64,000 nt of DNA from contig NC_089274.1 in the NCBI RefSeq assembly GCF_963678975.1, positions 19,485,633 through 19,549,632 of the forward strand, in the 5' to 3' direction. This DNA comes from Dysidea avara. Taxonomy: Eukaryota > Porifera > Demospongiae > Dictyoceratida > Dysideidae. Under the pieces are notes generated by a model that worked only from the letters and a program-made list of their open reading frames with translations, was not told the origin of the DNA and did no database searches. Shown piece after piece: positions 20,201 through 61,990 of this stretch. Position 1 is the stretch's first letter. Each line of letters starts with the position of its first letter. A program made the position numbers and the translations under genes.

Positions 20201-23200
20201 AGCTGTCTCCAGATCAAGTCACTGTCTGGGGCTTTTAGTTGCCTTCTTGTGGGTCCCTAGTGGGATAGTGACTAATAAATAAATAAAGTCTATCACTCAT
20301 GCAATATATAAAATTTTCACAACAGATTTTCTGCATATTCCTAATAACTAATAGAAATCTTTCCCTAAAATCTAGCCAAAAATCTTAAAAGTTTGATACC
20401 TTGTACTAGATTTTTTTTCAAATTGTGGACCCTTTGATAATGCTTAAATTGTCTGTTTATGTGATGCACAAATTGTCTTTTATTATTTGTTTATAGGTAA
20501 AACCCGTCCGGCCATGAGAGATTTAAGTAGACATGTGGTACCATCAGTTGCAGTGAAGTGGTACGAACTTGGATTAGAATTATTAGAGACCAAACATGAA
20601 AAATACCTTGATGTTATTGAAAGTGATGGCAACAAATATGATGTACAGTGGTGCTGTAGAAAGATGTTTCGTAAATGGTTAGAAACTTCTGATACTGCCA
20701 CTTGGGATCAGCTAATAGAAGCTATAAAAAGTATAAACTTGAATGATGTAGCCAGTGGAATTCCGTCACTTTTACTTCAAGGTGAATATGTGTATTGGAG
20801 TGTGCATGATTTCCATGTACCTTGCAATTATATTTTAGAAATCTATATAATAAAAAGCTGTCTGCCTGTCTGACCGTCTATCTGTCATTCTGCTTGCTTG
20901 CCAGTCACGATTCATTCTAAAAGCTACTGGACAAACTGTTTAAATGATAGAGTGCCTGACTTGTGTGTAGAAGATTATGGAATCCAGTTAGTTCGAGCTT
21001 AAATCGGATGACTGCAGGTTCGAGGCCACCTAGGTCCAGTCATGGATTTTTTCTCCTTTCTCGAACTTTTCAAACACACCTTAAGTAGCTAAAGTCTTTG
21101 AGCAGGTTGTAGGACCAGGTGTCCTACAGACCTTCAGCACTTGTGCTGTAAAGCATTAATAAATAAAATAAATAAATAGTGATATGTTTTTTGTCTTTTT
21201 AATCATAGTTTTTTGTGTACACAATTTAAAGCTGGACTTTCTAAAATCATAGTTATTGACAACCATAGTATGTATCGATGTGGGATTTAAACACTCATTA
21301 TCTGGCTATTGAATGTTATTGCTGTATATTGACACTTGTTTTTGTTCACTCTTTACATGTAATTAACTGTATTTGATTGTAATTGTACTGCACATCAGCA
21401 TTATACCCCTGGAAGGTCCTGCTGATCAAAAATAAATAAATAATATAATACAGTACATTGAAGACACTGGTATAAGGTTGGATCCCTGCACAACTTTTTT
21501 CGAATAATTGAACCTTTTTGTTTTCTGTGCACCCATGTTATGCACATTTTTGCCTGCTAACTTTTATGTTTAAAGTTTTTCTTACTGGCATAGACTGCCT
21601 CACAACATAAGGACTCTTAGCATTTGTGTTGGTAGGGGCATGCTAAAGTAGGTGAATTACAGACATGTCGATCTGTTTGTGCTGTGTTGTATTAGAACAA
21701 GTAGATTTTCAATTTTGTTTGTACTTTGTTTTTATACTTCTTTGCTACACACTTACACTTTCCAGAATATCTGTATCTATGTTTTAAATAGGCTATAGGT
21801 ATGTACTGGCATGCAAACTGCACACAGTAAAAGCCATATCGCTATTGAAGTAAATAATGAAGATATGGTACCTCTGTGTAATCTGCACAAATGCACATGA
21901 CACCATGCAGAAGTTTTGAACTTGTGAGTGGTGTGTGTGTGTGTTTGCTTCACCTTGCACTTACTATTTCAATACTTTTTAAAAGGATGGTATGAAATTT
22001 TTTTGGAATTTTGTAGTAAATGTCTATCTGCCTGCCTAATTTCAGGCAAGTGTAACTCGATCGATAATGGCTAAGGCTACGGGCTTGATTTTTTCACTTT
22101 ACATCGCTTCATCCCAAGATGTGCCTTTTGGCATACCACAGTATATACAATGCATGCATCATGGACTTACTTTTGTCCTCCTTTGTGTTCGTCACTTCTT
22201 TTTGTTGACAGCCCAAGGTGTCAATTCGTGCTATCCCAAGGTGTCAATTCGTGCTAGCACAATGGCTTCCCTATGTTTGTAAATGGGAATCATTGGCATT
22301 TTCTGTGGTGACTGGATTGATTGCAAAGGCGCTTCCCCTAGTTTGTAATGCTATGAAACGGGCTGAACATAGCTGAAAGCGAAGCATAATGGCCAGGTCA
22401 TAGACACTTCAGTAATTGATAGTTGGGAACATGAATCATCCATATTTTTTCGTGGTGACTGGATTGATTGCAGAGGTGCTTCTCATACTTCTTTGTTTGT
22501 AGCATTGTGTAACGGGCTGAACATAGCTGAAAGCAAAATGTAATGGCCACTTCACTTTCGAGTCAGTAATTCATAGCTGGGATGCACATTCATACAAAAA
22601 CTTTAACTCTGGTGCCATCCTTACTTTTGATGCAGTATGCGTGGGTTCACCAGCCATTACAAAAAAAGTAAACAAGTACAAGGAATTTTAAGTTCGATTA
22701 GAGATCATAGAAAAAAGTAGGGAAATAAGGAAGGTTACCTACACCTGCAGATATACTAATGGATATTCAATCCAGTCATGGCTATAGGGATTAAGTGTCC
22801 ACTAGTATATCTGCAGGTGTAGGTGACCTCCCTTGTTTACCTACTTATTTTCTATGAACCCTAATCGAACTTAAAATTCCTAATTTTCCTTATCCTTGTG
22901 TTATACTACTAGTACCACATAGTTTGGGTATGCACAATACTATAGTTGTCATACAGTACGATAGTACTGTATAGAAGGGAACACAAAGGAGTAGGTGTGG
23001 CCCACGAAATAATATCACTCAAAAACCAGCTTCAATTTTCCTTGATAACGATGAGGCAGTATTTACTAAGCCCAAACTAACCTTCAGATTGACCTGAAAT
23101 GCTTTCAACAAGTTGCTACGTAATTTAAAAAAAAAAAAATATTTAACAGAATTTTCTACTGACTGACTGACTGAGTAACTGATGGCTTCAGACAAGCATA

Positions 23201-26200
23201 ACTCGATAATGGCTAAGGCTACGGGCTTGATTTTTTCACTGTTTGACGTCGCTTCGGCTTGAGAGATGCCTTTTGGCATACCGCAGTACGTACAATGCAT
23301 TTTTCATGGACTTACCAGTGTCCTCCTTTGTGTCCCATTCATCTTTGCTGACAGTGAAAAGTGTCGTACTGCTGTGAAACGGGTTGAAAATAGCTGACAA
23401 CAAAACATAATGAATGCTTCACTTTTCAGACAATAATTGATATAAATGGGGCGCGCGGTACCATTTCTTTCTTTCGGTATGCATGGATTGTAGAGGTGCT
23501 TTTTGAACAGTTCTTGATTCAAAATGCTGTGTAACGGGTTGAACATAGCTGACAACAGATACTCTACTTTTCAGATGACAATTGATATGCGGTATGCGTA
23601 GGTTCACCAGTCATAATAATTATTTACAAAAAAGTTAACAAACAATACACAAAAAATTTGAATTTTCAACTAGAGTAGGGACCATAGCACATTGATAAAC
23701 AGTACTGAAACAAGTTGGAGTAGTCCATGATATTAAAATCACAGTAAAACAATAAGAAGTGTTATATCCCTACTGTGCATTTCCGTTATGATATCTTGGA
23801 GCTCAGTAGGGATATAACACTTCTTATTGTTTTCTATGAAGGTTTGTGTTTCCCCACCAAAAATTAACCAGTTTTTTTTTCAGAAAGACTTTGCGATAAC
23901 AATGAAGCCCATATGTGTCTTCAGAGTGACTCTAAATCAAGACACATGGTAGTGTGTCGTGCAGCCAAGAAAGCCAGCGTGCCACATCGTGAGTATATTT
24001 ACAGGAAGAGACTAAACACAATTTTCATGCACAGTGTACAATATAAGGGAAAATTATTGCTCGGACAGAATGGCCAATCAAAAGTAAATTTGATTGGCCA
24101 TTTCTGAAATTGCATGGCCATAAGATAGAGGTGTACTATCCTAGTGTACGAAGCACACCCCGCAGTGCGAAGCACAAGCCTTCTAGAGGTGTCTGGGGGC
24201 ATGCACCCCCAGGAAATTTTTGAAAAAGGATCACTCTGAGATTGAATCTGAGACCACTTTCAACTACTTATCACTGAACTTTATGCACATGCATTTTACA
24301 GAGAATTAATTGTTTATTAGTAATACATGTACAAAATTTGTGTTGCTGCATACATATTTTACAAAAAAAACCTATGAATCAATGTATTGTACAGCTAGTT
24401 TGTAGACTTAGCTAGGCTAAATGCTTTGTTACAAGTGATGTTGAGTCAGCACAGATTGAATTATCAACTAGCTATTGCTAAAGTTTCTCTTGTGAATAGC
24501 AATAGATCAAAACTTACTCTCGAACTTTCTGTGTGCAGAACACTTTTATCACGTGACTTTCATTCCACTTTCTCCAGCCACTGCATCTCTACAAATTATA
24601 ACCACGAAATGGCCACTTTGCAAACATTACTTTCTTTTCTTCTCTTGGAAGGCGCCACTCGTGTAGTCAGTGTAGTGATCGTTTCTTCACAACATTGACA
24701 GTAACCCACAATTGATAATTTGGGTAAATACGAGGTGCAGTGCTCTAGCTTACGCATGCGCATCGAGTCGATGCTTCGATGGGATCGAGACTTCACGTAG
24801 TGATTAAATAGCTTCGGTAAGGAAAGTTAACGATACGACAATAATAATAACTATAATATTACATGTTATAAAAACTAATAATAAAGAATTACAGTTGTAA
24901 AAATTTTGATCGGCACAAATGGCCGACCAACGGCTACATTGATCGGTCAACAGCATCATTTGGTCGGAAAATGGCCGAGGACCGACCGTTATATTGTACT
25001 CTGCATGCATATGTAGCTCCATGCTCCTTTCTCGAATTGGAATCATTTTTATACTGCAAACGCCCTCCACCTTCAGCACCCCATATAACAAATTTGAGCA
25101 AGATTGTCTAATGCAATCGTGTTAGGAAATTGTGAAATAAAAGACTTCGAACTCGGCTTCATATGTTTTTTTGTTAGGGGGCTTGGGGGGCTTAGATTCT
25201 TCTTTTCGCACACTGTGCAAAAACTATTATAACATGCAAATGCGTAGCTTGATTGTTGTGAGCTTTCGTTCACTTTAAGAATGTATTGTGGCACAATCAT
25301 GTATACCAAGTTTAGTGCAATCTGATTAATAGTCATAGAGCTATGGACGATTATTTGCATTAACAAAGGTCGACTTGTTGTCATGCCTACGGGGTAAACC
25401 ACTTATGGGAATAACTTAAAGATTGGTATGCATATAGGTTAACCATCATAGCTCAAACCATTTGTGGTTTTAAAGAAATTGCATTGACAACTATGGAGTT
25501 ACAAGGCAAAAACCAAATAACTGTAAATGGCTGGGTAAAATACTCTAATAGAACAATCACCACAGGGTAAAAAGAGTACACGAAAAATGTCGAAATAAAA
25601 TTACTAGCCAGCGCTCGAACCAGGGACCTCCAAACTGACACCCAAATCCTTAACCACTGAGCCTATGATCACCTCACTTAATTTCTACTTTATTCTAGCT
25701 AAAATGTGCTCAATAGTGAAAAGTTTGTAATTTCATAGATCTACCAATGGAAAATGTAGTTTCTTCTAGAACATTCTGTGTGTGTTCTATTAGAAATTCT
25801 CAAAGAAATGTGCACTCTGTTAGAGCATTCAAAAGTAATCAAGTAAACTCTGCAATACTGTACTATTACAACTTCTCTAGTATTCCATCAAATCAATTTC
25901 AGCCAATGATCAGTTTGGTACAGATAGCGGCAGGGTAGTATACTACTATTAAGACCTACTCGTGCCAATCGCCATCATCATAATGATCATAAGGGTGCGG
26001 CCTTCAAAAAGCCTGGGTGAAAAAGTTATGAAATCAAAGCCATGAAATGGCTGCAATGATGATAATAAATTTACAAAAGCTATTACTAAAATTTATTATC
26101 ATCCGCATAATTGCAGCCATTTCATGGCCACCACCTTTGATTTCATAACTTTTTTCACCCTGGCTTTTTGGAGGCTGCACCCTTTTTATACAGCTTGGCT

Positions 26201-29200
26201 GTTTTTTATGTGGATATACATTAAAATTTTATTTATAAAATTTTCTATGGCTGACTATTAACAAACAAGTACACAAAAAATTTGGAATTTTCAACTAGAG
26301 TAGGGACCATAGCACATCGATAAAAAGTACTGAAACAAGCTGGAGTAGTGCATGATATTAAATCACAGTAAAACAATAAGAAGCATTATATCCCTATTGT
26401 GCATTTCATTATGGTATCTTGAGCACAGCAGGGATATGACGCTTCTTATTGTTTTACTGTAATTTAATATTGTGCACTAATCCAGTTTGTTTCAGTACTT
26501 TTTTCAATGTGCTATGATCCCTGCTCTAGTTGAAAATTCCATTTTTTTGTGTACTTGCTTGTTAACTTTTTTTGTAAAATAAAATTTATGACTGGTGTAC
26601 CCACGCATACCGCATCAAAAGAAAGAAACGGCGCCGCGTGCTCCAGCTGCCAATAATTGTCTGAAAACTGAAATATCCATTACAATTCGTTGTTAGCTAT
26701 GTTCAACCCGTTACACAGCATTACAAATCAAGGACTGTTCGAAAAGCACAAAGTAGCCACAATGAAAAATATGAACGATTTCTGTTATGAAGGGAAGCCA
26801 TCACGTGCTACCATCAAATCGACACCTTTTGCTGTCAGCCAAGATGAATGGGACACAAGGAGGATACTGGTAAATCCATGAAGAATGCATTGTACATACT
26901 GTGGTATGCAAAAAGGAACCTCTTGGGCCGAAGCGACGTCAACAGTGAAAACATCAAGCCTGTAGCCTTAGCCGTTATCAAGTTACCCTCTGAAGGCACC
27001 AGTCAGGCAGTTAGTCAGTAAAAAATTCCATTTAATAATTTAAAAAAAATTCTGTAGCAACTTGTTGAAAGCATTTTGAGTTGATCTGAAAGCTTGTTTG
27101 GGCTTAGTTTTACCTCACCAATACTGCCTTATCATCGTCAGGGAAAATTGAGGCTGTGATTTTTTGTGGGCCCACACCTACACTTTTGTGGTCCTTACTA
27201 TCGTACTGTATGTAGGGATGTCAAACGGATTTTTAAAAGTTTGACAAATGCATCACTGTCAGTAGTAGATTAATAACTGCATGCCTAGTTTTAGAAGTCG
27301 CACAACATAACTTGTTCTGTTTGCAGATGCTGCTTACCTGGGGCCTAAGACAAAGGAAATGAGTAGTAGAACAGTAGGTGAGTACTCTGAGTTGTATTTA
27401 TACTGTGTTGTCATCATCATTGTTGTTACCAGGTGCATGGCATGACAAATTATTTGCTTTATTGCTGAGCGTCTCTGGCTGTTCTGGCATGGTTCATTTC
27501 CTTTTCTATTTTACATACTGGCCAATTTTACCCATACCTACAAGCACAATTTCTTACAGTACAGTGGGAATTATGAAGATTTGCATTTTCCCACCAAAAT
27601 CCAATCAAAATATCTAGCACCATCTTTCTTTCATGATAACTTGGTAGTGCTTGTTAGGTGTAATTTAGAGTGACCTGAAATGCTTTTGATAAGTTTTGGA
27701 ATTTGAACTATTGACTAACTGACTGCCTGTTTAATGTTGCTTAGACCTGAGATGTGCCTTTTCATCCACCGCAGCTGCTGCAATGCATGCACTATATGAA
27801 TTTACCTTGGTCCTCCTTTGTGTTTTTCTCCACTACTACATAGATGTTGATTTGTGGTAATGCCTTGTGCTGGATACCACTTTTATAGTGAGCATCGTCT
27901 GTAATTTCTGTAGTGATTGGATTGATCACAGAGGCATTTGTGTGTAACACTATATCGGGTGGCTGAAAACAGAGCAACTCACTCTTTATGTTCTATGTTT
28001 GCTCAGTACCATCAGCATCGCAGTATCTCACCAACCACGAATTGTGTGTGTTTGGGCATTGGCATGCGTATGATACTAGAAGATCTGACTGTTTTTCAAG
28101 TGTTTCACTTCATTTTCTCAAATATTTTTAAACCAGGTGTGCGTGCCAGCTGTGTGCATGCACCTGGTTTCCTGAAATTGGTTCGGCAAAATCTGCATGT
28201 CTGCATGTCTGTCCAACACTCATGTGAGCAAACAGGCTTTGAGCTACAGAAAATAATCCTTCATTCAATCAATAAAGGCTGTTTATGTACTGTAGTAGAA
28301 GTGTTGTTTTTGTTGTGTTTACATGAAGGGGGTGTGGCTGGTAACTGAAACCAGGTGAAACAGGTCGGTAGGGGCTGCTAGCCTACATGTTGTAACAGGT
28401 ATGCAACGACTGAAAAACAACATAACAGGCCTTGTAAGCTACCAGGAATGGAATTTGTTCTCAAGTTGAAAGGGCACATATTCCCTTTGTACATGAGTGA
28501 AAATTAAGGACAGCCATGATGCTTTGTAGATCAAGAATTTGTGTATGAAAACACTAAAGAAGATACTTCTGTGTGTTATTTGTGGTTTAAAGTGGTTTGC
28601 TCAAGTTATGCTTCCTTAGCAATGCATAGCAGCATAATTGAAAAATAATTGGTGAATTATAAAATATGTTTAAGTTTAATGTAGTATTTTTTCAATAATT
28701 GATGCACAAAAATAGCAACAAAATAGTACACACAGATATGAATTACATTATAAAATCATTCCAGTTCCAAAAAATTTAATGTACTGCATGTATTGTTACA
28801 AAACAAGGCAAGAAACAAAGCTACGTATAGCATGCTGTGTGGTTAATTTAATTTATAAAGAGTTGATTAATTTAAGGGATAGTATTTTCTGGTACCTGGT
28901 TTTTAGAAATAGCATAGTATCAAACATCATAGATCTATTCAGTAGTGGAACTCTGTGTCTTTGGGAGCAAGGAAAGCATCATACAGTGACTTTGTCTCTT
29001 TTAATTGGGTCGTCAACAAGAGAGCTATAGTACACATGATAGGTATTACACTGTAGGCCAAACCTGTACCATGGTAATGGTAAAAGTCAACATTGTGGCA
29101 TTTTGTCTGCCTTTTCCGAGCCTTTTTTTTTTTTTTTTTTTTTTTCTTTCTTTCTTTTGACTTCCCTTGCATGGTGTCCACTAGTGTTATTAACATAAAC

Positions 29201-32200
29201 TGCTAGGATTTGACCTCAGATTTGGTGACAACACATTATCTTCTTCATGGTCTTTCACATGTTCAAAATATTTAGGAAATGCTTAACTGAGTGATTGTGA
29301 CAAATGCATTGGGTACAAAAGTTTCTTCCATGAAAAAAAAACAACTTGCTATACACTAATTATCTATACACAGCCTAATATGGCTAAATTTTACCAGGAT
29401 GCTTTTATGAACACACACAAAGCAATATTAAGTAACAGTATCAAAAAGTGTAATAAGTATGTAATACCTTAACACTTTTTGTGTATTTTATCCATGCAGC
29501 TGTTCAACAGGGTGTGTTTGAAGATTTAGATATTACCGATTGTAGAATTGACATTGCTTTTACTCGTGTCAGTTGTAAATTGCTTGGTATACTGCTGGAA
29601 GGAAAATTTGATGTTACTGTGATACGTATTGCTTGTTTTGCTAACGCAAACACTGAGTGTGGTATTGGATATCCTGAAGGTCTACAACAGAAAATGATTA
29701 CAGCTAAATCAGTAGCTGAATTGATTGAAGTTTTGACGTTACATCCCACTCACTGGAGCTGGATAAACATCCAGGTTATGGAGAAAATTGCATCCTTAAG
29801 TAATCGAGCTACAAAGCTAGTAGAACATTATAAAACTGTTATTTCTGCTAAAAGGGTAAAGGAAATTTTACAAGATATACCAGACTTTGTAGTTGACGAA
29901 ACCTTTTATGTTAGAATTAAAGAAAAATGGAAAAAAGCATTGGATGAAATGACTTTCAAAGACATCCAAGATCATCATATTTCTGTTGGAAAATTTTTTG
30001 GTGTTAATGAATCAGCAATTGTACTTGTAGAAATACTTAAAGGGTGTGTTGAAATTCATTGGCTAATTCCAAAAGTGTTATTAGACCATGCAAGAAATGA
30101 ATTTGAAAAGATCAAAACTAAACTATTGAATTTCAGCATTGTTTCAGTAGAATTTATGTCGGACAACCACTTTTCAATTACAGGTAACTGTGTTATCAAA
30201 AATTCATAAAACTCTGGTGGTGTATGCAGTGTTGGGCAAGTTACTTTTTAAAAGTAACTAGTTACATATTACATATTACTTGCAACTGAACTATTTAGTT
30301 ACAGTTACATATTACCCATAAAATAAAATAACTATAATAATATTACATATTATATTACTTTGTGTCCACAGCCTTAAGCTGTCACATGTGAAACTACCAC
30401 CTTATCACGTGACATGATGGCGTTGTTGGACAATGTACAAATCTTGGTTATAAGTAAGAAGCTGGTGAATAAGCTTCATTCAGTAGGCTTCATTACTTTG
30501 TTGTGGCTAGGCGCTACTCAGTGGATTACTAATGAGATTAGTAACTTCGTTACTTGTAGTAATAATATTATGTAATATTAGATTCGTTACAGTAACTATA
30601 TTACTTAGGTAACGCATTATATTTGTAAGTAAAGTAACTTGAGTTATATTACCTGTTTTTATAGTGTATTTCGTTATATTACTTAGTTACCACAAAAGTA
30701 ATATTACGTAATGCGTTACTCCCAACACTGGTGTATGTAACTGTATACTAATCCTGCTCTATAGTATGCAGTAGAATCTCAGTTATCTCACATCAGTTAT
30801 TCAGAATATTGTTTAACCGAACAAAATGATTGGTATTTGTATTTTCTTGGTTAAACACTGCACCTTCAATAGTATAGCTGAGTGGTGCCACGAAATAAAG
30901 GCTTAAACATATTGTTTTCGAACATCCAGTGGTGGTCAAGTTTGAATAGTTGCTGCATCAATTTTTGGAACTACATGTAAGGTAATAAATGCTACAGCGT
31001 TTAACCAGTAATTATATCCTAGTAAAGTCATACTTCAAAGAATTACAGTACGATAGTACTGTATATTAGGGATCATGGATGTTTGTGTTTTTCTGGCCAA
31101 ATATATCACCCAAAAACCAGCTTCACAATACCATCCTGGCGCCTTGGCAGTATCGGTTAGGTATAACCAAGCCCAAAAGTGCCTTCAGTATGACCCTAAA
31201 TGCTTCCAATAGATAGCCACAAAATTTTTGGAAAAATTTATTCAATGGAATTTTCTACTGACTGACTAACTGCATACCTGATTCCTTCAGACTAGTGTAA
31301 CTTGATAACAGCTAAGGCTATGGGTTTGATTTTTTAACTGTTTGACGTTGCTTCGTCCTGAGACATGCCTTTTGACATACCACAGTACATATAATGCATG
31401 TATCATGAACTTAACTTTGTCCTCCTTTTCTTTTTGCTGACAGCCCAAGGTGTCAATTCATGGTAGCGTGATGATGGCTTCCCTACATTTGTAAATGGAA
31501 ATCGTCTGTAGTTTCTGTGTGACTGGATTGATTGCAGATTGAGGCACTTCTAATACTGTTCTTTGTTTGTAATGCTGTGTAACAGGCTGAAAAGTGAAAA
31601 CAAAGCGTAATGGCCACTGCACTTTCGAGTCAGTAATTGATAGTTGAGGCATGCAAATTGTCTGTATTTTTGTGGCAATTAGATTGTTCTCCTACTGTTC
31701 TTCATTTGTAGCGCTGTGTCGAGTCAGTAATTGATAGTTGAGGCATGCAAATTGTCTGTATTTTTGTGGCAATTAGATTGTTCTCCTACTGTTCTTCATT
31801 TGTAGCGCTGTGTAATGGGCTGAGCATAGCTGAAAGCTAAGTGGAATGGGCACTTCACTTTCGAATCAGTAATTTATTGATAGCTGTGGTGTGTGTTCAG
31901 ACAAAAACATTATCTCTAGTGCCATCCTTTCTTTTGATGTGGTATGCATAGGTTCACCAGTCATAACAATGTTACAAAAGAAATAAACAAACAAATATAA
32001 GGAAAAATTAGGAACTTTAATTTTGATTAGGGATCATAGAAAAAATCAGGGAACAAAGGAGGTCTGTCTGTTGCCAGTATCAGATGTCTGTTGCCATTGC
32101 CAAATGGTCTGGCTTCCAGCTAACATATGTTGGGAGCTGATTGGAGAGCTGGCTTGCAAACAAGTCCATTGACAGGGGACCCAACTGAGAATTGATTCTC

Positions 32201-47200: not shown

Positions 47201-50200
47201 ATGATTGATGTGTTGAAGAGTTTCACAAGACAAATGAATATTAAAAGAATAGCTCACGTTGATGTTAGTGTGGTTATTAGTGATAGTGATAGGAAATTGT
47301 CTACACTTCCTACCAGCATTCAAAATGTAACACTTTATGGATCAAATTTATACTCGAAAGGTATTCTTGGCTATTCTACAAATGCTATCATAACCTTTAA
47401 TCATGAAAATTTTGCACTAGTAAGAACGGTAGCAGATTATTTAGCAACTGTTGTGCATCATAGCAACCAATTAGACACATCATATCTAAACGCTATTCCA
47501 TCAAATCTAGCAATAAACATTAAAAATTTCCTACAGCAATTTACAACAATGAACACTGTTAGTGTTAATGATAACAATATTAATGACAAAGCTGCATATG
47601 ACGTTGCAGCTGTTTTATCTTATCATGCTAAATTAAAAATTCTAGATCTAGGTAAAAATAATTTACAAGCAGCAGGAACTATTAAGATTGCAAGAGCTTT
47701 AAAAAATATTACAACTTTGACAATATTTGATATGAATAACAACAATATTAATGATGAAGCAGCAGATGATATTGCAGCTGTTTTATCTCACAATATGGAA
47801 TTACAACAACTAGAGTTAAGTGGAAATAATTTACAAACAGCAGGTGCCATTAAGATTGCAAGAGGTTTACGAAATACTACAACTCTGACAATATTTGATA
47901 TGGAAAATAACAATATTAGTGATGAAGCAGCAGACGACATTGCAACTGTTTTATCTCGTAATACTAAACTACAACAGCTATATCTTGGTGGAAATAATTT
48001 AAAAACATCAGGTGCCATTAAAATTGCAAGAGCTTTGCAGTGTACTACAAATTTGACAATATTTTGTGTACAAAATAATAATATTGGTTGTGAGGCAGCT
48101 GATGACATTGCAGCTGTTTTAGGTTGCAGTGGTAAACTACAGGAGGTAGATCTAGGTGCAAATAATATACAAACAACGGGTGCTATTAAGATTGCAAGAG
48201 CTTTGCTTACTACTTTGACAGTGTTTAGCATTGAAAACAACAACGTTACTGATGAAGCAGTAGATGACATTGCAGCTATTTTATTTCAAAATGCTAAACT
48301 GCAAGAACTATATCTAGGTGGAAATAATTTACAAACAACAGGTGCTATTAAGATTGCAAGAGCATTGCAACATACTAAAAGTCTGTTAATATTTGGTGTT
48401 GAAGAAAACAATATTAGCAACGAAGCAGCAGATGACATTGCAACTGTTTTATATCATAATTCTAAATTACAAGAGCTATATATAGGCGGAAATAATTTAC
48501 AAACAGTAGGTGCCATCAAGGTTGCAAAAGCACTGCAAAGTACCACAACTTTGTCAGTATTTAGTGTTGAAAACAACAATATTAGTAATGAAGCAGCAGA
48601 TGACATTGCTGTTATTTTATCTCATAATACTAAATTAAAAGAGCTGTATCTAGGTGGAAATAATTTACAAACAGTGGGTGCCATCAAGGTTGCAAAAGCA
48701 CTGCAAAGTACCACAACTTTGTCAGTATTTAGTGTTGAAAACAACGATATTAGTGATGAAGCAGCAGATGACATTGCAGCTGTTTTATCTCATAATACTA
48801 AATTACAAGAACTATATCTAGGTGAAAATAACTTGCAATCAGCAGGTTCCATTAAGATTGCAAAAGCTTTACAAACTACTACAACTCTGACACTATTTGA
48901 TATGCAAAACAACAATATTAATGATGAAGCAGCAAATGACATTGCAGCTGTTTTAGCTCTTAGTACTAAACTACAAAAGCTACATCTGGGTGGAAACAGT
49001 TTACAAACATTAGGTGCCATAACAATTGCAAGGGGTTTACAAAGTACCTAAAAATACTTAATATGGAAAGGAACAGTATCAGTTATGAAGCAGCAGATGA
49101 AATTGCAGTTGTTCTGTCTCATACTAAACTACACGAGTTATATCTAGGTGGAAACAATTTACAAACAGCAGGTGCCACTAAGATTGCAAGAGCTTTACAA
49201 AATACTACAACTCTTACAACACTTGATATGCAAAATAACAATATTAGTTATGAAGCAGCAAATGACATTGCAACTGTTTTATCTCGTAATTCTAAACTAC
49301 AAAAGTTTTATCTAGGTGGAAACAATTTACAAACATCAGGAGCCATAAAGATTGCAAGAGCTTTACAAAATAATGTGACTCTAGTAATATTTGATATGGA
49401 AAACAACAATATTAGTGATGAAGCAGCTGATGATATTGCCGTTGTTTTATCTCATAACGTTAAACTACAAAACGTACATCTAGGTAGGAATAATTTATGT
49501 TCAACAGGTGTCATTAAGATTGTACAGGCTTTACACAGTGTTACAACTCTAACATCTTTCAGTATTGGAGCCAACAATGTTAGTGATGAAGCAGCAGATG
49601 ATATTGCAACTGTTTTGTATCATAATACTAAACTACAACAGCTAAATTTAAGCAAAAGTAATTTACAAATAGAAAGTGTCACCATAATTGCAAAGGCATT
49701 ACAAAATATGACAGCACTTACAGTACTTAACATGAAAAACAACAACATAAGTGATGAAGGAGCAGATGACATTGCAGCTGTTTTATCTCATAATACTAAA
49801 CTACAATGGTTAGGACTAGGTGACAATAATTTACAATCAGCAGGTGCCATTAAGATAGCAAAAGCATTGCAAAGTATTATAACTCTGACAGTTTTTCACA
49901 TGGAAAACAACAATATTAGTGATGAAGCAGCTGATGATCTTGCATCTGTTTTATCCAGCAACGGTAGATTACAACAGCTATATCTAAGTGGAAATAATTT
50001 ACAATCAGTGGGTACCATTAAAATTACAAAAGCCTTACAAGATACTACAACTTTGGAAATATTTGATTTGGAGAGTAATAATATTAGCGATGAGGCAGCA
50101 GATGACATTGCAGCTGTTATATTTCATAATACTAAACTGCAAGAGCTATATCTAGGTGGAAACAATTTACAAACAGCAGGTGCTATTAAGATTGCTAGTG

Positions 50201-50613
50201 CTTTATTGACTGCTTCAACAGTAGTATTGCTTGACATTTCAAACAATAATATTAGTGACGAAGCAGCAGACAGCATTGTAGCTGTATTGTGCCACAATTC
50301 CGATATACAAGAAATATATCTAGATGGAAATAATTTTCAATCAACAGGTGCCCTTAGAATAGCACGAGCTTTAAAAAGTATTGCGACTCTGACAAAGTTT
50401 AGTATGAAAAACAATAATATTGGAGGTGAAGCAGTAGATGATATAGCAGCCATTTTAGCTAATAATATTAATCTGAAAGAGTTGGACTTAGGAGGAAATC
50501 AGTCAGTGGATGGTATTGAGACTATTGAAGATTTACAAAGTACCACAAGCAACAATACTTCAAGTGATGAAGAAACAGACTATGCTACCAAGATCTACTT
50601 ACAACTAATTTAA
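17243..50613 (+). CDS. Death-NACHT-LRR (NLR-type) receptor with frame-broken LRR array
   Basis: NLR-type intracellular receptor; the family senses microbial or danger signals through LRRs, oligomerises by NACHT and signals through death-fold domains (family knowledge). Exons: 17243-17324, 20497-20781 (Death-like: LLETKHEKYLDVIES, VQWCCRKMFRKWLE, ATWDQLIEAI), 27327-27377, 29500-30183 (228-codon helical exon, no named domain), probable 45127-45165, then 45234 onward. All internal junctions are phase 1, which ties the exons together across 33 kb. NACHT: Walker A GAPGIGKT (45512-45535), Walker B LTIVLDGYDE, sensor VLVITSRP, then winged-helix region with FLHFSIQEYMAARHIA. About 18 56-residue LRR units follow. 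A stop at 49049-49051, caused by an apparent 7-nt deletion, ends the NACHT frame at about 1652 residues; LRR coding continues at 49063-50613 in another frame. It could be a truncated working receptor, a pseudogene allele or an assembly error. Confidence 0.88.
18837..19030. mobile_element. Palindromic MITE, about 194 bp, TA-flanked
   Basis: The two ends are near-complementary: TATGGTACCGCTCAAATGCA at the left and, on the reverse complement of the right end, TATGTTACCACTCAAATTCA. Both arms continue through GAGAGTGTGAG and AATTAAAGGGC. The TA at each edge would suit a Tc1/mariner-type target duplication. It lies in NLR intron 1. No coding capacity. Confidence 0.7.
20145..20286 (+). mobile_element. 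Retroposon (SINE/LINE 3' end) with AATAAATAAA tail
   Basis: A GC-richer segment containing TCTGGGGCTTTTAGTTGCC and TGGGTCCCTAGTGGGATAGT runs into TGACTAATAAATAAATAAAG. A short-unit tail like this is typical of L2/CR1-type retroposition. The 5' end is not defined. Confidence 0.5.
20497..20781 (+). other. Death-like domain exon of the NLR gene
   Basis: A 95-codon phase 1-1 exon. RHVVPSVAVKWYELGLELLE, then YLDVIES, CCRKMFRKWLE and ATWDQLIEAIKSI give the six-helix Death-fold pattern seen in many sponge and cnidarian proteins: a Trp in helix 1, a CC..M..KWL helix, and a TW..L..A helix. Symmetrical phase lets such exons be shuffled between genes. It could also be called a DED/CARD relative; Death fits best. 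Confidence 0.8.
20900..21178 (+). mobile_element. tRNA-derived SINE
   Basis: An A-box-like TAAATGATAGAGTGCCTGAC (about 20940-20959) and a good B box GGTTCGAGGCC (about 21018-21028) are followed by an unrelated body and an AATAAATAAAATAAATAAAT tail. Box spacing is a little longer than in a tRNA and the acceptor stem does not pair, so it is a SINE and not a working tRNA. Confidence 0.65.
21370..21446 (+). mobile_element. Non-LTR retroposon 3' tail
   Basis: CACATCAGCATTATACCCC and GGAAGGTCCTGCTGATC can pair as a small hairpin and lead directly into AAAAATAAATAAATAATA. This is the usual form of a 5'-truncated LINE or SINE 3' end. Upstream limit unknown. Confidence 0.5.
22000..22880 (+). repeat. 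Copy 1 of hairpin-bearing dispersed repeat family
   Basis: The body runs 5' to 3' from the CTGCCTGCC / TCGATAATGGCTAAGGCTAC block through GTGCCTTTTGGCATACCAC to GTTCACCAGCCAT. It ends in a palindrome at 22682-22880 whose arms start GGAATTTTAAGTTCGATTAG and end with the exact complement. The arms also hold ACACCTGCAGATATACTA. It lies in NLR intron 2. See the finding on the family. Confidence 0.75.
22950..23832 (+). repeat. Copy 2 of the hairpin-bearing family
   Basis: It begins at an ACAGTACGATAGTACTGTAT palindrome, which marks the outer end of several copies. It carries the same body blocks as copy 1 and ends in a different hairpin (arms around AAGTGTTATATCCCTACTG and CAGTAGGGATATAACACTT, about 23757-23823). 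A reading frame shared with the copies at 26.7 kb and 61.3 kb lies on the minus strand (FNPLHSILNQELFKKH). 23833-23945 is a fragment of a third copy. Confidence 0.75.
25601..25680 (-). mobile_element. tRNA-like SINE head
   Basis: On the minus strand an A-box-like TAGGCTCAGTGGTTAAGG and a B box GGTTCGAGCGC are spaced about as in a tRNA. The acceptor stem does not close and no CCA-proximal pairing is seen, so I read it as a SINE head or tRNA relic. Confidence 0.5.
25991..26190. mobile_element. Palindromic MITE, about 200 bp
   Basis: Arms of about 60 bp: AAAAAGCCTGGGTGAAAAAG, then TTATGAAATCAAAGCCATGA on the left, mirrored by TTGATTTCATAACTTTTTTC and ACCCTGGCTTTTTGGAGGC on the right. A degenerate single arm of the same family is at about 34869-34923, inside the large intron. 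Confidence 0.7.
26270..27215 (-). repeat. Copy of the hairpin-bearing family, reverse orientation
   Basis: The hairpin comes first (26284-26540; GGAATTTTCAACTAGAG at the left, complement at the right, central AAGAAGCATTATATCCCTA), followed by the body in reverse. It ends near TCGTACTGTATGTAGGGAT. An open frame 26690-26881 (about 63 codons: MKNMNDFCYEGKPSRA, DEWDTRR) is shared with the 61.3-kb copy. NLR exon 3 starts 112 bp further on. Confidence 0.75.
27570..27990 (+). repeat. Degenerate copy of the hairpin-bearing family
   Basis: Weakly conserved body blocks occur in the same order as in copy 2: CATTTTCCCACCAAAAT, AGAGTGACCTGAAATGCTTT, GATGTGCCTTTTCATCCACC, TTTACCTTGGTCCTCCTTTG and GTGATTGGATTGATCACAGA. 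No hairpin is left. It lies in the NLR intron between exons 3 and 4. Confidence 0.55.
27991..29499. other. NLR intron remainder, no recognised gene
   Basis: No coding exon is supported here. A 136-codon open frame at 27938-28348 overlaps the repeat copy and has no splice context. A poly-T run lies at about 29124-29145, perhaps the tail of an old retroposon on the minus strand. Confidence 0.5.
30227..30730. mobile_element. hAT-type MITE 43 bp after an NLR exon
   Basis: Ends are CAGTGTTGGG...CCCAACACTG. The flanks GTGTATG on both sides are a 7-8 bp target duplication. The interior is built of TTACTT / AAGTAACT repeats able to fold on themselves. It has no ORF. It begins 43 bp after the splice donor of NLR exon 4, so the insertion just missed the exon. 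Confidence 0.85.
31045..32058 (+). repeat. Copy of the hairpin-bearing family, cut by the DIRS-like fossil
   Basis: It starts with TACAGTACGATAGTACTGTA (about 31046) and holds the usual body. It reaches only the left arm of its hairpin (GGAACTTTAATTTTGATTAG, GGGATCATAGAAAAAATC) before DIRS-like sequence takes over. It contains a perfect 94-bp tandem duplication at 31627-31813. Confidence 0.7.
31627..31813 (+). repeat. 94-bp tandem duplication
   Basis: 31627-31720 is repeated directly at 31721-31813 without a visible mismatch, in contrast to the diverged surroundings. It begins GAGTCAGTAATTGATAGTTG. Either very young or an assembly artefact. Confidence 0.9.
32405..32703. mobile_element. Small DNA element inserted in the DIRS-like fossil
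   Basis: Ends are CAGGGGTTAATCTAG at the left and CAGGGCTCAACCCAG on the reverse complement of the right. ACTGC on both sides (32400-32404 and 32704-32708) looks like a 5-bp target duplication. It has a long poly-G run near the left end and a GCATGCCCCCAGACCCCCTA block found in other repeats here. Non-coding; possibly hAT5-type, from the 5-bp duplication only. Confidence 0.7.
34431..34532 (+). repeat. 26-bp tandem repeat, 4 copies
   Basis: Four direct copies of a 26-bp unit that begins CAACTGAACAACTCATTACG, with almost no differences. It lies in the upstream part of the DIRS-like fossil. Confidence 0.9.
35172..35821. mobile_element. Non-autonomous DNA element, about 650 bp, with long TIRs
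   Basis: The left end GGTATGTCCACACG and the reverse complement of the right end GGCATGTCCACATGA match, and inverted similarity continues inward (GCAATGCGTATTGAAT on the left, CAATGCGTATTCAATTTGC on the right). No ORF. The target duplication is unclear (TAA/TATAA at the edges). The TIR style resembles PIF/Harbinger relatives; this is inference. Confidence 0.65.
36080..36770 (-). repeat. Copy of the hairpin-bearing family, reverse orientation
   Basis: The hairpin is at 36080-36321 (arms AAACAAGGGAAATGGCC..ACACCTGCAG and CTGCAGGTGTAGGCAACC..CTTGTTTC), followed by degraded reversed body (TTTCGCTTTGTTTTCAGCTA, AGAACAAGAAGCACCTCTGC). A 36789-37034 open frame beyond it has no recognised similarity. 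Confidence 0.6.
37927..38771 (+). pseudogene. Harbinger Myb/SANT-like accessory protein, broken
   Basis: In Harbinger elements this protein binds DNA and helps bring the transposase to the ends and into the nucleus (family knowledge). From ATG 37927 the frame gives a trihelix-type Myb domain: YTNWTDAEVFRLIQVWSEEG, EQCRTKVKKLHQQYKKL, RTKWKFFDKLNELL (about residues 1-100). An acidic linker follows. The frame ends with a TAG at 38395-38397 through an apparent frameshift. In the shifted frame come a basic stretch GRKRKRNKG, one further stop (38562-38564), and the coiled-coil tail RRMKFEAEQRRQEREFQLRM up to 38771. The upstream extension to 37894 starts with TTG and is not used. Confidence 0.85.
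39024..40246 (-). pseudogene. Harbinger DDE transposase (HARBI1-like), broken
   Basis: DDE_Tnp_4-type transposase. Reading from the high coordinates: an N-terminal region (40246-40040), an in-frame TAG at 40037-40039, a helical domain (WWEDVVLQSFGSRDWLENFR, about 39,980), then the catalytic core. Catalytic candidates are D in AGSVDGTHIPI, D in FLICDSAYPLLPW and E in IVEIAFGRLKARWR. VGWPGNVHDARVF and ACCTLHNICE are hallmark blocks. A single-base shift lies near 39,670, just before LKEVITGFKEKWG. With one stop and one frameshift this copy cannot make full-length protein. HARBI1-like host genes also look like this, but the surrounding TIRs and TSD show it is the transposon's own gene. Confidence 0.9.
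40502..40850. mobile_element. hAT-like MITE, 349 bp
   Basis: TAGAGGTGCACC at the left matches GGTGCACCTCTA at the right. The interior repeats ATAACCGATA / ATCGG motifs. Flanks share TAGATTT imperfectly, so the 8-bp duplication is not clean. No ORF. It sits just right of the Harbinger in the same host repeat. Confidence 0.75.
41131..42728. other. NLR intron segment with 18-bp motif pair, no gene
   Basis: No exon is supported. Contains two copies of the dispersed ACTCTAATAGAGCAGTCA-type motif at 41762-41779 and 41789-41806. Open frames at 41258-41551 and 42208-42420 show nothing I recognise. Confidence 0.5.
42737..43363. mobile_element. hAT-type non-autonomous element, 627 bp
   Basis: CAGACATGGGG at the left and CCCCATGTCTG at the right, with an exact 8-bp target duplication GCTGTCAC (42729-42736 and 43364-43371). 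Both ends are packed with AAGTACTT-type repeats that pair between the ends. No transposase; the 138-codon minus frame is repeat-derived. Confidence 0.9.
43763..44105 (-). repeat. Copy of the hairpin-bearing family, short
   Basis: The hairpin 43763-43928 (AGTAGTGAAACAAGGGAGAT and AACCTCTCTTGATTCACTAC; inner CACCTACAGATATA) is followed by a short reversed body with GTATGGCATGTTTGGGCTTG. Confidence 0.65.
44514..44735. repeat. Stand-alone foldback hairpin of the family
   Basis: A long palindrome: GTAGTGAAACAAGAGATGAA, TGATGGTATTACAGCATAGC on the left and the complements GCTGTAATACCATCATTCAT, CTAGACTTGTTTCACTAC on the right. It is bounded by AAAAGTGAAGTAGGGATCCA and its complement. Arms are about 95 bp with few mismatches. 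Little or no body follows. Confidence 0.75.
45127..45165 (+). other. Probable 39-bp microexon of the NLR gene
   Basis: CATAG acceptor before 45127 and GTAATG donor at 45166 bracket 39 bp that is open in the required frame (VELLRHFSKSHYVG across the junctions) and is phase 1 on both sides like every other internal NLR exon. It lies 68 bp before the NACHT exon. The donor is not ideal, so this needs transcript support. Confidence 0.5.
47527..50534 (+). repeat. LRR array, about 18 units of 168 bp
   Basis: Tandem 56-residue double-LRR units of ribonuclease-inhibitor type, consensus around KLQELYLGGNNLQTAGAIKI, then ARALQNTTTLTIFDMENNN, then ISDEAADDIAAVLSHN. Nine units lie before the stop at 49049-49051 and about nine after it. 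The two units around 48,490-48,825 are almost identical in DNA, showing recent duplication or gene conversion. Confidence 0.9.
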
Positions 50614-56110: not shown

Positions 56111-56173
56111 TTAAGTTCTTACAGTAAGACTAAACTGGTGTGTCTCCAGTTTAGTCTTACTGTAAGAACTTAA
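56111..56173. repeat. Perfect 28-bp hairpin
   Basis: TTAAGTTCTTACAGTAAGAC plus TAAACTGG, a 7-nt loop, then the exact complement of all 28 bases. No mismatch. It could be a minimal foldback element, a recent inverted duplication or a small-RNA precursor. Confidence 0.9.
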
Positions 56174-57902: not shown

Positions 57903-57991
57903 CCCAGGACAGAACTCTGTATTTAAATGGATGAGTTTTTCATTTATCTGAACAAATTTATTAAACTTTATCTAAACAAAGTTATTTATTT

Positions 57992-60629
57992 TAGTAGAGC
58001 TTCTAAGCACTTTCTTTGTGCACTTTTTGATAAAAGCATGAAATTTGGTACATAGTTTGTATATACCATAAAGGTCATTTTACGATCGGGAGCCACCTCA
58101 GATTTGACCTTTGGTGACCTTTGTGTCCAATTTTGTACTTAAAATTGATAGTTTTTCCTCTAATTCATTTATACATGACTCAAAATCCACAACCTTGGTG
58201 CCAAATTAATGCTTTTACTCTAAAAAGCAAGTTGATACTTACAGAAAGTCTTTAGCTTTCTCTATTCAAAAGTTATAGAAATTTTTATAAATATAACAAA
58301 TGCTATTTTTTCTCCTGCCCACGCATATACTTTTGATATGTAAAAGAAAGAAAGTTGCTTATTCAATTATCATACTATTCACCTCAACTGGGCATGAGTA
58401 TCAGGAGCAGACCCATTAACTATCAAAGGGTGCATATAGGGTAGTAGGAGTACAGTATAGGAGGTGGGGATAACTCACTTGCACAGTGTATAAATTATAC
58501 ATAGTAGAGACCAATTTTAAATAATTGTATTAACCAAGTACGTGGGTATAGGCTAAGGTTGTAACATAGATTATATAGTAAAATACAGTTGGTACACGTT
58601 CTGATCCGTGACTACAGAAACGCAAGATTTTGTCCTCCCTCTCAAAGACCCATATATAGTAGCCCAGATTCGACTGAAACTTGTACAGTTACTTGTTTAA
58701 TACTATTTCTTGAGTATAGGGTAGTATATATGTAGAACTTGAGCGGAAATGAATAAGGAGTATTTCACTTGGATTTCACTTTTTATTGCACAATTTGTCC
58801 TCCCTCTACTGGGCTTGCATGCACTTGCACATTTTGCGATAAGATTTACAAATTAACTTTATGTACATTAGTTCTATGTTATAGGCTATATATCTTTGTA
58901 ATAACACGAAGGTGACACTAGGTCTGTAGGCGCGGATGGAGCATGCGGTTTCCAATCCCCTTTCTCTACAATTTATGGTTGTAACAAGGAACCTACGGAA
59001 GTGTGGAGGATACATGGCATCCCTATTACTGTTAGACTTGTACATACACTTACAGGTCAAGATAGCTGAGTTGATAGTTTGGAATATGTACGTATCTATA
59101 AAATCACCTTAGGAAGAGCTTTATGTAGAATTGGTGTACTAGCATAGAAGTACAACATTTGATTACATTAGAAACATGCCTTATGGCTGGTTGGTCTAAT
59201 AGCTACTTACATGTACATTCGATTATTGACATATTTCACAGTCAAGGTTGATCTATTTACTCTATTCACTGAGAAATCTATTTATGCCATTTTGGTCTAG
59301 CCATGTACGCAGTGATACTGTTCTATAATTTCAATTTGTATTCCATTGTGTGAAGTGGGTGATACGTAATTATAGCTAACCTCTATAGGCCAAAAATGAA
59401 ACTAGTCATGAGTTAGAAAGGCTCTGTTACTTTCTAGGTAAAATTTAAGAAAATTTTCACAAACTTCATGAGTGAATGATAACAAATTTGTGAAAATGTA
59501 CGTTATTGTGATCATGAATGAATATGGTTGAGTTTAAAATATTATTTTGCTAGGCCGCACAATCTAGAATAATAATGAAAATTGCTTTTTACATGATTCT
59601 GTTCAACCCTTGATTCTGCCTATATGGTATAACAGGTTTGAATGGCAACAATAAAAATTAAAGTATATACCAAATGCTTATTACTTTTTAACATTCAAAT
59701 ATGAATATCCTGCTGTACAGATTTATTAACAACCATCGTTCACAAATATGGAGAGGCAAACTACCTTGGAGCTATGTCAATATAAGCTATATTATGGCCA
59801 TATATAGTCTTTGGTTGTTTTTTATTTTTATAGCACAACAGTAGGGTTAATATATGAAATATATGATGTATTCACTTTATTCTCATGGAGACTACACGGT
59901 GTGATTATCTATACTTGATATCACTTAATCTGTTACACAGGATTTAATTGGTGCATATTGCTGCATATTATAGTTTTCCTATCCTGAAAATTAATACAAC
60001 TGTAAATTAGGCTACTTAAACAAAATCATGTAACCTGATACCATACGTAGTTACTGTAATCACCTCAGGGTTATTTTGCTGTGGTATGTAGATAGACAAA
60101 TGGCTGCATTAGACAAGCAGGCAATACAGTTTTTTGAATTTGCTGTTCCAGTGTCCCTGGTATGGAGAGGTGGTCTCTTTACACAGGTGGTTACTAAGAC
60201 AGGGTCCACTATATAACTGTACAACAATTACTCAGGATGTAATAGAACTATGTGAAAACACTGTAGTATACATATATACAACTATAATGCATGATGTGTG
60301 TGGGCGGGTGAAAATATGATCTTATAAATAACTGTAACTTTTGAATAGAGAAAGCTACAGACTTTCTGTAAGCATCAACTTGCTCTTTAGAGTAAAAGCA
60401 TTACTTTGGCACCAAGTTTGTGGGTTTTGAGTCATGTACAAGTGAAATAGAGGAAAAACTGTCAATTTTTAAGTGTAAAATTGGATACAAAGGTCACCAA
60501 AGGTCAAATCTGAGGTGGCTCCCAATCTTAAAATGACCTTTATAGTATATGCAAACTATGTACCAAGTTTCATGATTTTATCAAAAAAATGCACAAAACT
60601 TGCTTTTTTTAAGGTTAGGAGCTCTACTA
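57992..60629. mobile_element. 2.64-kb element with about 330-bp terminal inverted repeats
   Basis: TAGTAGAGCTTCTAAGCAC at the left matches the complement of the right end (TAGTAGAGCTCCTAACC). Similarity continues inward for about 330 bp with scattered differences: GGAGCCACCTCAGATTTGAC and its counterpart GTCAAATCTGAGGTGGCTCC, and AGAAAGTCTTTAGCTTTCTC versus GAGAAAGCTACAGACTTTCT. The left arm is about 57992-58325, the right arm about 60290-60629. The 2-kb interior has no ORF above about 84 codons. The target duplication is not clear (TTT on both sides). A large non-autonomous or foldback DNA transposon of unassigned family. Confidence 0.85.
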
Positions 60630-60965
60630 TTTGGACACTTTCAGTAGACAGGTGTTAGAGTCTCACTGTATAAAGGAAAAAAAATCAAGCCCATCGCACT
60701 TGCTATTATCAAGTTACACTTGTCTGAAGGCATCAGGCAGTTAGTCACTCAGTAGAAAATTCCATTGAATAATTTTGTAGCAATCTATTGGAAGCATATA
60801 GGGTCGTACTGAAAGTATTTCTGGGCTTGGTTATGCCTAACCTTTACTGCCAAGGTGTCAAGATGGTAGCTGGTTTTTAGGCGATTTTTTTGGCCAGAAA
60901 AACCCATACCTCCATGATCCCTAATGTACTGTATGATATAGCTATGTGTGTTCATTTGGAAACCC
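60630..60965 (-). repeat. Copy of the hairpin-bearing family, truncated
   Basis: Reversed body with TTATCAAGTTACACTTGTCT, GAAGGCATCAGGCAGTTAGT and CCTCCATGATCCCTAATGTA, starting right at the edge of the long-TIR element. No hairpin. Confidence 0.65.
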
Positions 60966-60989
60966 TATATTTTAACCACAGTATATTAT

Positions 60990-61895
60990 GCTCATGAGTA
61001 ACAGTAAAACAATAAGAAATGATATATCCCCACTGTGCATTTCCATTATAGTATCTTGAGCACAGTAGAGATATAACACTTCTTATTTTTTTACTGTGAT
61101 TTAATGTTGTGCACTACTCCAGCTTGTTTCGGTATTTTTTATCGGTGTGCTATGGTCCCTACTCTCGTTGAAAATTCCAAATTTTTTTGTGTACTTGTTT
61201 GTTAACTTTTTTATATAAATAATGATTATGACTGGTGAACCCACGCATACCACATCTGAAATGGCACCACGCACCCCAGCTATATCAATAAGTGAAGTAC
61301 GTACCACTATGCTTCATTGTCAGCTATGTTCAACCTATTACACAGCATTTTGAATCAAGAATTGTTCAAAAAACACCTCTGTAATCCACACATACCGAAA
61401 GAAAGAAATGGTGCCGCGTGCCCCAGTTATATCAATTATCGTCTGAAAAGTGAAATATCCATTACGTTTCATTGTTGGCTATGTTCAACTCGTTACACAG
61501 CAGTACGAATCAAGAACTGTTTGAAAAGCACCCCTGCAATCAAAATAGCCACTATGAAAAATACGGATGATTTCTGTTACGAAGGGAAGCCATCACGTGC
61601 TACTGCCAAATCGACACTTTTCGCTATCAGCAAAGATGAATGGGACACAAAGGAGGATACTGGTAAGTCCATGAGAGAATGCATTGTATGTATTGCGGTA
61701 TGCCAAAAGGCACCTCTCAGGCTGAATCGACGTCGAACAGTGAAATAATCAAGCCCGTACGTAACCTTAGCCATTATCGAGTTACGCTTGTCTGAAGGCA
61801 TCGTCAGTCAATTACTCAGTCAGTTATTCAGTCAGTAGAAAATTCCGTTTAATAATTCAAAAATTTTTTTGTAGTAACTTGTTGAAAGAGTGACC
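60990..61895 (-). repeat. Copy of the hairpin-bearing family with the longest shared frame
   Basis: A partial hairpin (61000-61182; AACAATAAGAAATGATATAT and ATAACACTTCTTATTTTTTT) is followed by the reversed body. It carries an open frame of 143 codons on plus (61317-61748): FNLLHSILNQELFKKHLCNP, MKNTDDFCYEGKPSRATAKS, DEWDTKEDTG. A segment of about 165 bp is duplicated in tandem (two GCTATGTTCAAC blocks at 61322 and 61479). Confidence 0.75.
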
Positions 61896-61925
61896 AGAGC
61901 GGAGCGAGCCAAAGTCACTCAGTAG

Positions 61926-61990
61926 AAGTGTTAGAATGTCTTTAAATTCACCAAATTAATTCTGGTGAATTTCGAGACATTCTAACACTT
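61926..61990. repeat. Imperfect 28-bp hairpin
   Basis: AAGTGTTAGAATGTCT..AAATTCACCA and its near complement TGGTGAATTTCGAGACATTC TAACACTT around a short AT loop. It directly follows the family copy that ends near 61,895. Confidence 0.75.

Follow-up and report, generated by a model that had tools for sequence, protein, structure and literature searches.

What kind of element joins a body of several hundred bases to a large terminal hairpin, and whether the two belong together at all, are the questions raised by the window, as we call the whole 64-kb stretch of DNA analysed here. It holds some ten decayed copies of what looks like a mobile element without coding capacity, and a large hairpin forms the end of several of these copies. 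The preliminary description had placed a repeat family at nine positions, and we found it at all nine, together with a further body copy (J) and a hairpin without a body (K). The copies and their parts are the following.

21972-22898, + strand: copy A; body 21972-22657 with the 5' end missing, type 1 hairpin ~22672-22898
22287-22428 and 22433-22582, + strand: two monomers in the body of copy A
22949-23833, + strand: copy B; body as far as 23614, a body-side arm and, at 23746-23833, an inner hairpin of type 2
22952-22971, + strand: 5' palindrome of copy B, TACAGTAC-GATA-GTACTGTA
23836-23936, + strand: 5' body remnant, head to tail directly after B (E=4.9e-6)
26258-27213, - strand: copy C; body 27213-26588 and, at 26565-26258, a complete palindrome of type 2 (308 bp)
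27548-27976, + strand: copy D; diverged body with the 3' end missing, without hairpin (2.8e-26 when left out)
31042-32067, + strand: copy E; body 31042-31964, one type 1-like hairpin arm, then unrelated GC-rich DNA
31044-31063, + strand: 5' palindrome of copy E
31625-31813, + strand: perfect 94-bp duplication within the body of copy E
35837-36064, - strand: doubtful body remnant (36064-35837, body profile)
36066-36722, - strand: copy F; body 36722-36334, diverged, and a hairpin of type 1 at 36331-36066
37226-37385, - strand: body remnant (37385-37226, body profile)
37393-41147, + strand: copy G; body 37393-41085, with two younger insertions in it; no more than one hairpin arm at the 3' end
37690-40383: PIF/Harbinger-like transposon nested in copy G, not of the family
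43758-44024, - strand: copy H; 5' body part only (44024-43925) and, joined to it, a hairpin of type 1 (43934-43758)
44500-44749: K; hairpin of type 3, body-less, carrying the outer arm of the family (3.7e-4 with K excluded from the model)
60642-60949, - strand: copy J; body reduced to its 5' part, the 3' end missing, head to tail after I
61001-61891, - strand: copy I; body 61891-61228 without its 5' end, a body-side arm and, at 61097-61001, an inner hairpin of type 2

A body shared by dispersed copies

The dispersed family with one body is confirmed by a search of the 64 kb with a body profile made from nine copies (A-G, I and J; H was never included). This search gave 21 stretches at E<=1, the best 16 at E<=5.3e-18 and the weakest at E=0.083, with zero matches between 1 and 21.9 kb. 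Because the nine copies were themselves in the profile, leave-one-out profiles were run, and all nine were found again, the weakest being D (2.8e-26) and F (1.2e-24). The body part of H was detected at E=1.7e-6 and in nine of ten leave-out runs, being lost once J was dropped. Self-blastn provided an independent view of most copies, D being absent among the matches listed. The two short motifs previously thought common to all nine copies are less widespread: allowing up to 3 mismatches, motif 1 occurs at five places (A, B, C, E and G; chance mean 0.00) and motif 2 at six (A, B, C, E, G and I; chance mean 0.01). Exact-pattern scans of viral contigs and prokaryote genomes, collections without animal genomes as such and weakly informative here, yielded no further copies, and our literature search found the family described in none of the titles and abstract openings listed.

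Identity between the copies begins at TACAGTAC in five of the six that have a 5' end and at TGCAGTAC in the sixth, G. In only two of these six (B and E) is TACAGTAC followed by GATA and the complement GTACTGTA, and no exact TACAGTAC is present at any 3' end of the family. In all eight copies compared (F and H were left out), a (CTGN)n microsatellite occupies one and the same position; across the window, such a pair is present on the + strand in 2.8% of 70-base stretches. Monomers, up to ~150 bp long, vary in number from one to three, and two head-to-tail runs, A-B-remnant and I-J, contain copies with cut-off 3' ends. The short frame formerly proposed as a shared feature carries no coding signal, variable columns falling 18/19/22 by codon position (150 columns, six copies), and the open frames are not the same from copy to copy; a 150-aa frame on the opposite strand of copy I, considered as a coding candidate, is closed in the other translated copies. 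No target-site duplication was found in the flanks of the copies, most of which are truncated at one end; the six 5' flanks that were read show neither a consistent TT nor a duplication, and the 3' ends are undefined.

Copy G is split by an unrelated PIF/Harbinger transposon, bounded by a TTA duplication (37687-37689 and 40384-40386), whose ends (CAGCGTGTTTACACYAG) and duplication are unlike the ends of the family. It was considered as an autonomous partner and rejected, since it has its own ends and inserted into copy G later. Domains recognised in the window (NACHT-LRR, Death, mitochondrial carrier and TTC39) suggest animal DNA.

Hairpins, their place on the body and their cores

The hairpins are real, with stems of 33 to ~155 bp, but the statement that most copies end in a palindrome of 160-260 bp was too strong. 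Palindromes of ~150-310 bp are found in four of the nine: A (~201 bp), H (149-177 bp), C, and F (~250-270 bp, unreported in the search that gave A, B, C, H and I). Two of the remaining five, B (88 bp) and I (97 bp), retain the inner stem alone; E has a single arm; G has at most one, which was not recovered once G was left out of the model; and D has none. In the three hairpins that were folded with shuffles, RNA-fold z-scores were -18.6 (A), -30.6 (C) and -19.8 (K). Unrelated palindromes are also frequent in the window (for example 18837-19030 and 25986-26189).

Seven copies reach the 3' end of the body (A, B, C, E, F, G and I), and in six of them the arm occupies the same body position in leave-one-out models, the exception being G, whose arm is seen only with G in the model. 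In copy H the arm is retained behind a large deletion in the body, and D and J are cut off upstream of the arm position. This fixed position, kept even in the deleted H, argues against chance nesting and supports the claim that hairpin and body form one element with the hairpin built in; K, a hairpin with no adjoining body, counts the other way.

The proposal of several unrelated stem types on common outer arms is borne out. When five middle segments (from A, H, B, C and K) were compared, those of types 1, 2 and 3 were no more similar than shuffles in all eight cross-type pairs (p 0.19-0.98), and the outer arms align across core types. By eye, the apices share a motif, ATCYCTA / TAGRGAT. The type 1 core occurs in A, F and H, and in E as far as its single arm shows; type 2 in B, C and I only, whose bodies form one clade (support 1.00); and type 3 only in the body-less K. 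Since type 2 is confined to this clade, one core replacement suffices for the body-linked cases. The suggested exchangeability of cores is the weaker claim: a single replacement is shown, repeated exchange is not.

Within type 2, the apex of B is inverted with respect to C and I: of 12 informative columns, nine favour the inverted pairing and two and one the other pairings, six of the nine lying in the loop, so that within the stem the count is 3 versus 1 and 1. For type 1, A, F and H score alike in the same and in the inverted orientation. Comparison of arms within copies gave a mixed picture of homogenisation. Own arms are the closest match in A (85/103) and H (54/63), whereas in F they match at 82/122, versus 68/90 for its body-side arm with an arm of H, and in C at 131/155, versus 139/147 for its distal arm with the body-side arm of B.

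Affinities of the family and how it may move

Palindromic MITEs are short, non-coding and hairpin-forming elements. The family is likewise short, non-coding and hairpin-forming, but it has a body of several hundred bases to one side of its hairpin, and no target duplication was found for it. With Foldback/Galileo elements it shares long inverted repeats that vary among copies and exchange sequence; Galileo, in the portion of PMC3573991 consulted, has long repeats at both ends and 7-bp duplications, whereas the palindrome of the family is one-ended. HINE/DINE-1 elements, including Cg_HINE of the oyster, as characterised in the HINE passages of PMC7492417 and PMC4067079, match it in being non-coding, in a 5' repeat with a nearby complement (in no more than 2 of 6 copies here), in a tetranucleotide microsatellite, placed in the left flank in HINE, in central tandem monomers of varying number, which are optional in HINE, in a palindrome placed in the right flank, and in head-to-tail copies with cut-off 3' ends, which according to the former paper are frequent among tandem Helitron copies. 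They differ in their short stems (palindromes of 5-10 bp in the mite, short in the oyster; PMC4067079, PMC7492417), compared with 33 to ~155 bp here, in a microsatellite of GTCY rather than CTGN type, and in that HINE insert in a TT dinucleotide with no target duplication and have a 3' subTIR inverted to the 5' one, whereas for the family no exact 3' subTIR, consistent TT target or partner was found in the window. Although the layout is HINE-like, the palindrome is far too large for the family to be filed under HINE. This layout gives a partial answer as to the superfamily, which the preliminary description did not recognise.

We are confident that the family is a non-autonomous mobile element. 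It has the look of a known type of hitchhiking element, only oversized, and not of something entirely new. The explanation we tentatively prefer is that it works like HINE, moved in trans by a rolling-circle transposase of Helentron/Helitron type. In this view the element would start at the 5' palindrome and stop at the 3' hairpin, as its signal, with the microsatellite and the monomers, one to three in number, carried along passively. Imprecise stopping would then produce head-to-tail copies whose 3' ends are cut off, and would permit replacement of the hairpin core. Helraiser offers a parallel in the relevant part of PMC4778049: its 3' hairpin acts as terminator, an exchanged stem kept ~90% activity, and bypass produced new, diversified 3' ends; its palindrome, however, is of 19 bp, and its 5' TC and 3' CTAG ends are not seen in the family. 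Several observations go against rolling-circle movement, namely the long stems, GATA-GTACTGTA in two of six copies only, the lack of an exact TACAGTAC at the 3' end and of a consistent TT, and the lack of a match to the Rep/helicase of Helitrons in the 37 frames covered, out of the 40 stop-to-stop frames in the window that reach 100 aa or more.

A possible though less probable origin is a composite cut-and-paste element, in which a palindromic MITE family whose ends resemble TTAGGGATCATRGA took in the adjacent body through a second, similar upstream end; a single DDE transposase could then move hairpins alone as well as hairpin-plus-body units, the MITE subfamilies supplying the cores. The 5' end of E matches the distal end of H, inverted, at 17 of 18 positions of TATATTAGGGATCATRGA (0/300 shuffles), which would suit a cut-and-paste element better than a rolling-circle one, and the 5' end of J against H gives 0.003; these p values are uncorrected for 24 end-to-hairpin comparisons. 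For B, C, D and G the 5' end compared with H gives 0.13-0.94, the inverted pair TTAGGGATCATRGA being significant for E and J alone. Hairpins without a body are represented by K and, marginally, by an arm-like stretch at 34944-34977 (E=0.051), but there is no confirmed hairpin-less body with an intact 3' end, a target duplication was found at neither end, and in A, C and F the palindrome continues well past the supposed TTAGGGATCATRGA-like end. K and the abundance of unrelated palindromes in the window would also fit the chance nesting of a body and a palindromic MITE that have no relation to each other. This we regard as improbable, given one arm position in six of seven 3'-complete copies and in H, with two core types, and a single ancestral insertion would in any case have become part of the element.

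It is similarly unlikely that the hairpins are kept because their RNA yields small RNAs, as hairpin siRNA or miRNA-like precursors. The folds of A, C and K are very stable, and PMC6211395, in the part consulted, reports hairpin RNAs in the sponge Amphimedon and a tendency of its multi-mapping endo-siRNA clusters to be structured. The arm mismatches of seven hairpins, however, have no clear strand bias (23 G-U, 19 A-C and 24 other; 23 versus 15 for the first two without K, whose strand is arbitrary), giving no clear sign of selection on the stems at the RNA level, and there was no Rfam match at gathering scores; small-RNA production is still compatible with both results. Least probable, to our mind, is a eukaryotic mobile element whose terminal hairpin occurs as 'flip' and as 'flop', in opposite orientations, and which is replicated through that hairpin as viral rolling-hairpin genomes are; the apex of B, inverted against C and I, would be the footprint of such replication, and the 5' palindrome would be the second end of the element.

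If the family does move by rolling circle, it would show how far a 3' terminator hairpin can grow and be replaced, and would be a natural counterpart to the stem-exchange experiment with Helraiser. If it is instead a palindromic MITE with a captured body, it would represent one-ended capture of several hundred bases. Under either reading small RNAs might originate from the long hairpins, and the family is an example of how copies of one element may be separated by a repeat library into 'bodies' and 'hairpins'.

Copies of the repeat family and structure of the body

A profile of the body, the repeat part shared by the family, detects ten copies in the window (A to J) plus a few remnants, all within 21.9-61.9 kb. 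They include all nine positions named in the preliminary description; copy J is additional. All of the ten copies except H went into building the profile. In a leave-one-out analysis all nine were recovered, D and F most weakly (2.8e-26 and 1.2e-24), and H was recovered in 9 of 10 runs. The two motifs previously quoted as shared are more frequent than chance but absent from some copies. Since identity among the aligned bodies is 49-86%, the family is old and decayed. These counts come from a small sample, ten copies in one window, and several of them depend on copy boundaries and segments set by us.

Copies of the family, a hairpin lacking a body and insertions in copy G
A, 21972-22898 (+): type 1 core, palindrome of ~201 bp
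B, 22949-23833 (+): type 2 core, hairpin reduced to the inner stem (88 bp)
C, 26258-27213 (-): type 2 core, palindrome of 308 bp
D, 27548-27976 (+): body copy
E, 31042-32067 (+): hairpin reduced to one arm
F, 36066-36722 (-): type 1 core, palindrome of ~250-270 bp
G, 37393-41147 (+): body copy, interrupted twice
37690-40383: PIF/Harbinger-like transposon in G, TTA duplication, 17-bp ends with one mismatch, Myb/SANT-like and DDE_Tnp_4 frames
~40500-40853: MITE in G with ends TAGAGGTGCACC, by which we tentatively take it to be hAT-like
H, 43758-44024 (-): type 1 core, palindrome of 149-177 bp
I, 61001-61891 (-): type 2 core, hairpin reduced to the inner stem (97 bp)
J, 60642-60949 (-): body copy, head to tail behind I
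K, 44500-44749: hairpin, type 3 core

The 5' end of the body is present in six copies (B, C, D, E, G and J), where identity begins at TACAGTAC or, in G, at TGCAGTAC; GATA and the complement GTACTGTA lie behind this onset in B and E and are missing in the other four. About 200 bp farther on, a (CTGN)n microsatellite occupies the identical place in all eight copies compared, followed by monomers, from one to three per copy, each no longer than ~150 bp. Copy E holds a perfect 94-bp duplication. The hairpin starts behind GGTTCACCAGTCAT. No codon-position signal was found in the body (variable columns 18, 19 and 22 of 150). By eye, and in a single copy, ATCCCTACA, preceding TACAGTAC in C (27203-27230), mirrors TATTAGGGAT, which follows TACAGTAC in E, as if the 5' end had once been a longer palindrome.

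Among neighbouring features, a Death domain open frame lies at 20448-20873 (E=3.8e-5) and a NACHT-LRR gene at 45185-50613, with its leucine-rich repeats within a 168-bp tandem array of 17.4 copies and its open frame broken into two pieces near 49.05 kb. Copy E ends at the edge of a GC-richer block (32068-34500; 0.465 over 32-34 kb) with overlapping minus-strand frames, four of which were scanned and gave no Pfam match. An inverted pair of a 275-bp repeat (58015-58287 and 60323-60597, 90.5% identity) adjoins the cut-off end of J.

Terminal hairpins and their cores

In seven copies (A, B, C, E, F, G and I) the body is retained up to its 3' end. In six of them the outer arm of the hairpin sits at a constant place behind it and is recovered with its own copy left out of the arm model; the arm of G was not recovered once G was left out. 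H has lost most of the body, its hairpin being joined to the body's 5' part, and K carries the family outer arm (3.7e-4 with K left out) with no body adjoining it. An arm-like stretch at 34944-34977 is marginal (E 0.015-0.48). The three hairpins folded, A, C and K, gave z-scores of -18.6, -30.6 and -19.8. Arm mismatches comprise 23 G-U, 19 A-C and 24 others; since G-U and A-C stand at 23 vs 19 (23 vs 15 without K, whose strand is arbitrary), there is no clear sign of RNA-level selection.

A stretch common to 26159-26215 and 34870-34926 (E=2.9e-5), made up of the end of a palindrome at 25986-26189 plus ACAGCTTGGCTGT, lies at both sites a short way before hairpin-arm-like sequence, raising the possibility that the element, or its 3' flank, extends beyond the limits described. 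Another palindrome of ~194 bp, at 18837-19030, has outer and inner arm pairs and is unrelated in sequence to the family.

The hairpin stems had been described as unrelated types on common outer arms, apparently exchangeable. Unrelated they are: in all eight cross-type pairs, drawn from five middle segments, similarity is no higher than in shuffles. The case for exchange is weaker. The bodies of B, C and I form a single clade (support 1.00, nine-copy tree), and one replacement on that branch suffices to explain the body-linked core types; free exchange of cores is unnecessary. The type 2 apex of B is inverted, relative to the body, with respect to C and I: its loop aligns to theirs at 12 and 13 when inverted and at -3.5 and -3 when direct, whereas C and I are concordant (direct 26, inverted 7). 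Nine of 12 informative columns, six of them in the loop, back the inversion, which is most plainly put down to arm-to-arm recombination. For type 1 apices the alignment does not discriminate orientation.

The family as a probable mobile element

A non-autonomous mobile element is the best interpretation of the family. The main rival to the Helraiser-like mechanism favoured below, capture of a body by a palindromic MITE, we regard as somewhat less likely. An inverted 17/18 match, TATATTAGGGATCATRGA, between the 5' end of E and the distal end of H (0/300 shuffles) would suit a cut-and-paste element, and J against H gives 0.003; B, C, D and G against the same end give p of 0.13-0.94, all among 24 comparisons left uncorrected. 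Neither insertion in G shares its ends with the family.

In layout the family is like HINEs as portrayed in parts of PMC4067079 and PMC7492417, also in having copies arranged head to tail whose 3' ends are cut off, here A-B-remnant (23836-23936) and I-J. The palindromes of HINEs in those accounts are, however, far shorter, the 5' complement occurs here in only two of six copies, and neither an exact TACAGTAC at any 3' end nor a consistent TT in the 5' flanks was found. We did not file the family as HINE because one defining HINE feature, the short 3' palindrome, was looked for and not found. Of the window's 40 stop-to-stop frames with a length of 100 aa or more, 37 were compared and gave no match to Helitron Rep/helicase.

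In the Helitron Helraiser, according to PMC4778049, the 3' hairpin is the terminator, ~90% activity is retained with an exchanged stem and is not kept after swapping the whole hairpin or its loop, and terminator bypass generates new 3' ends. By analogy, we tentatively favour a Helraiser-like mechanism as the likeliest one for this mobile element, in which the 3' hairpin would serve as terminator and its bypass would yield new 3' ends.
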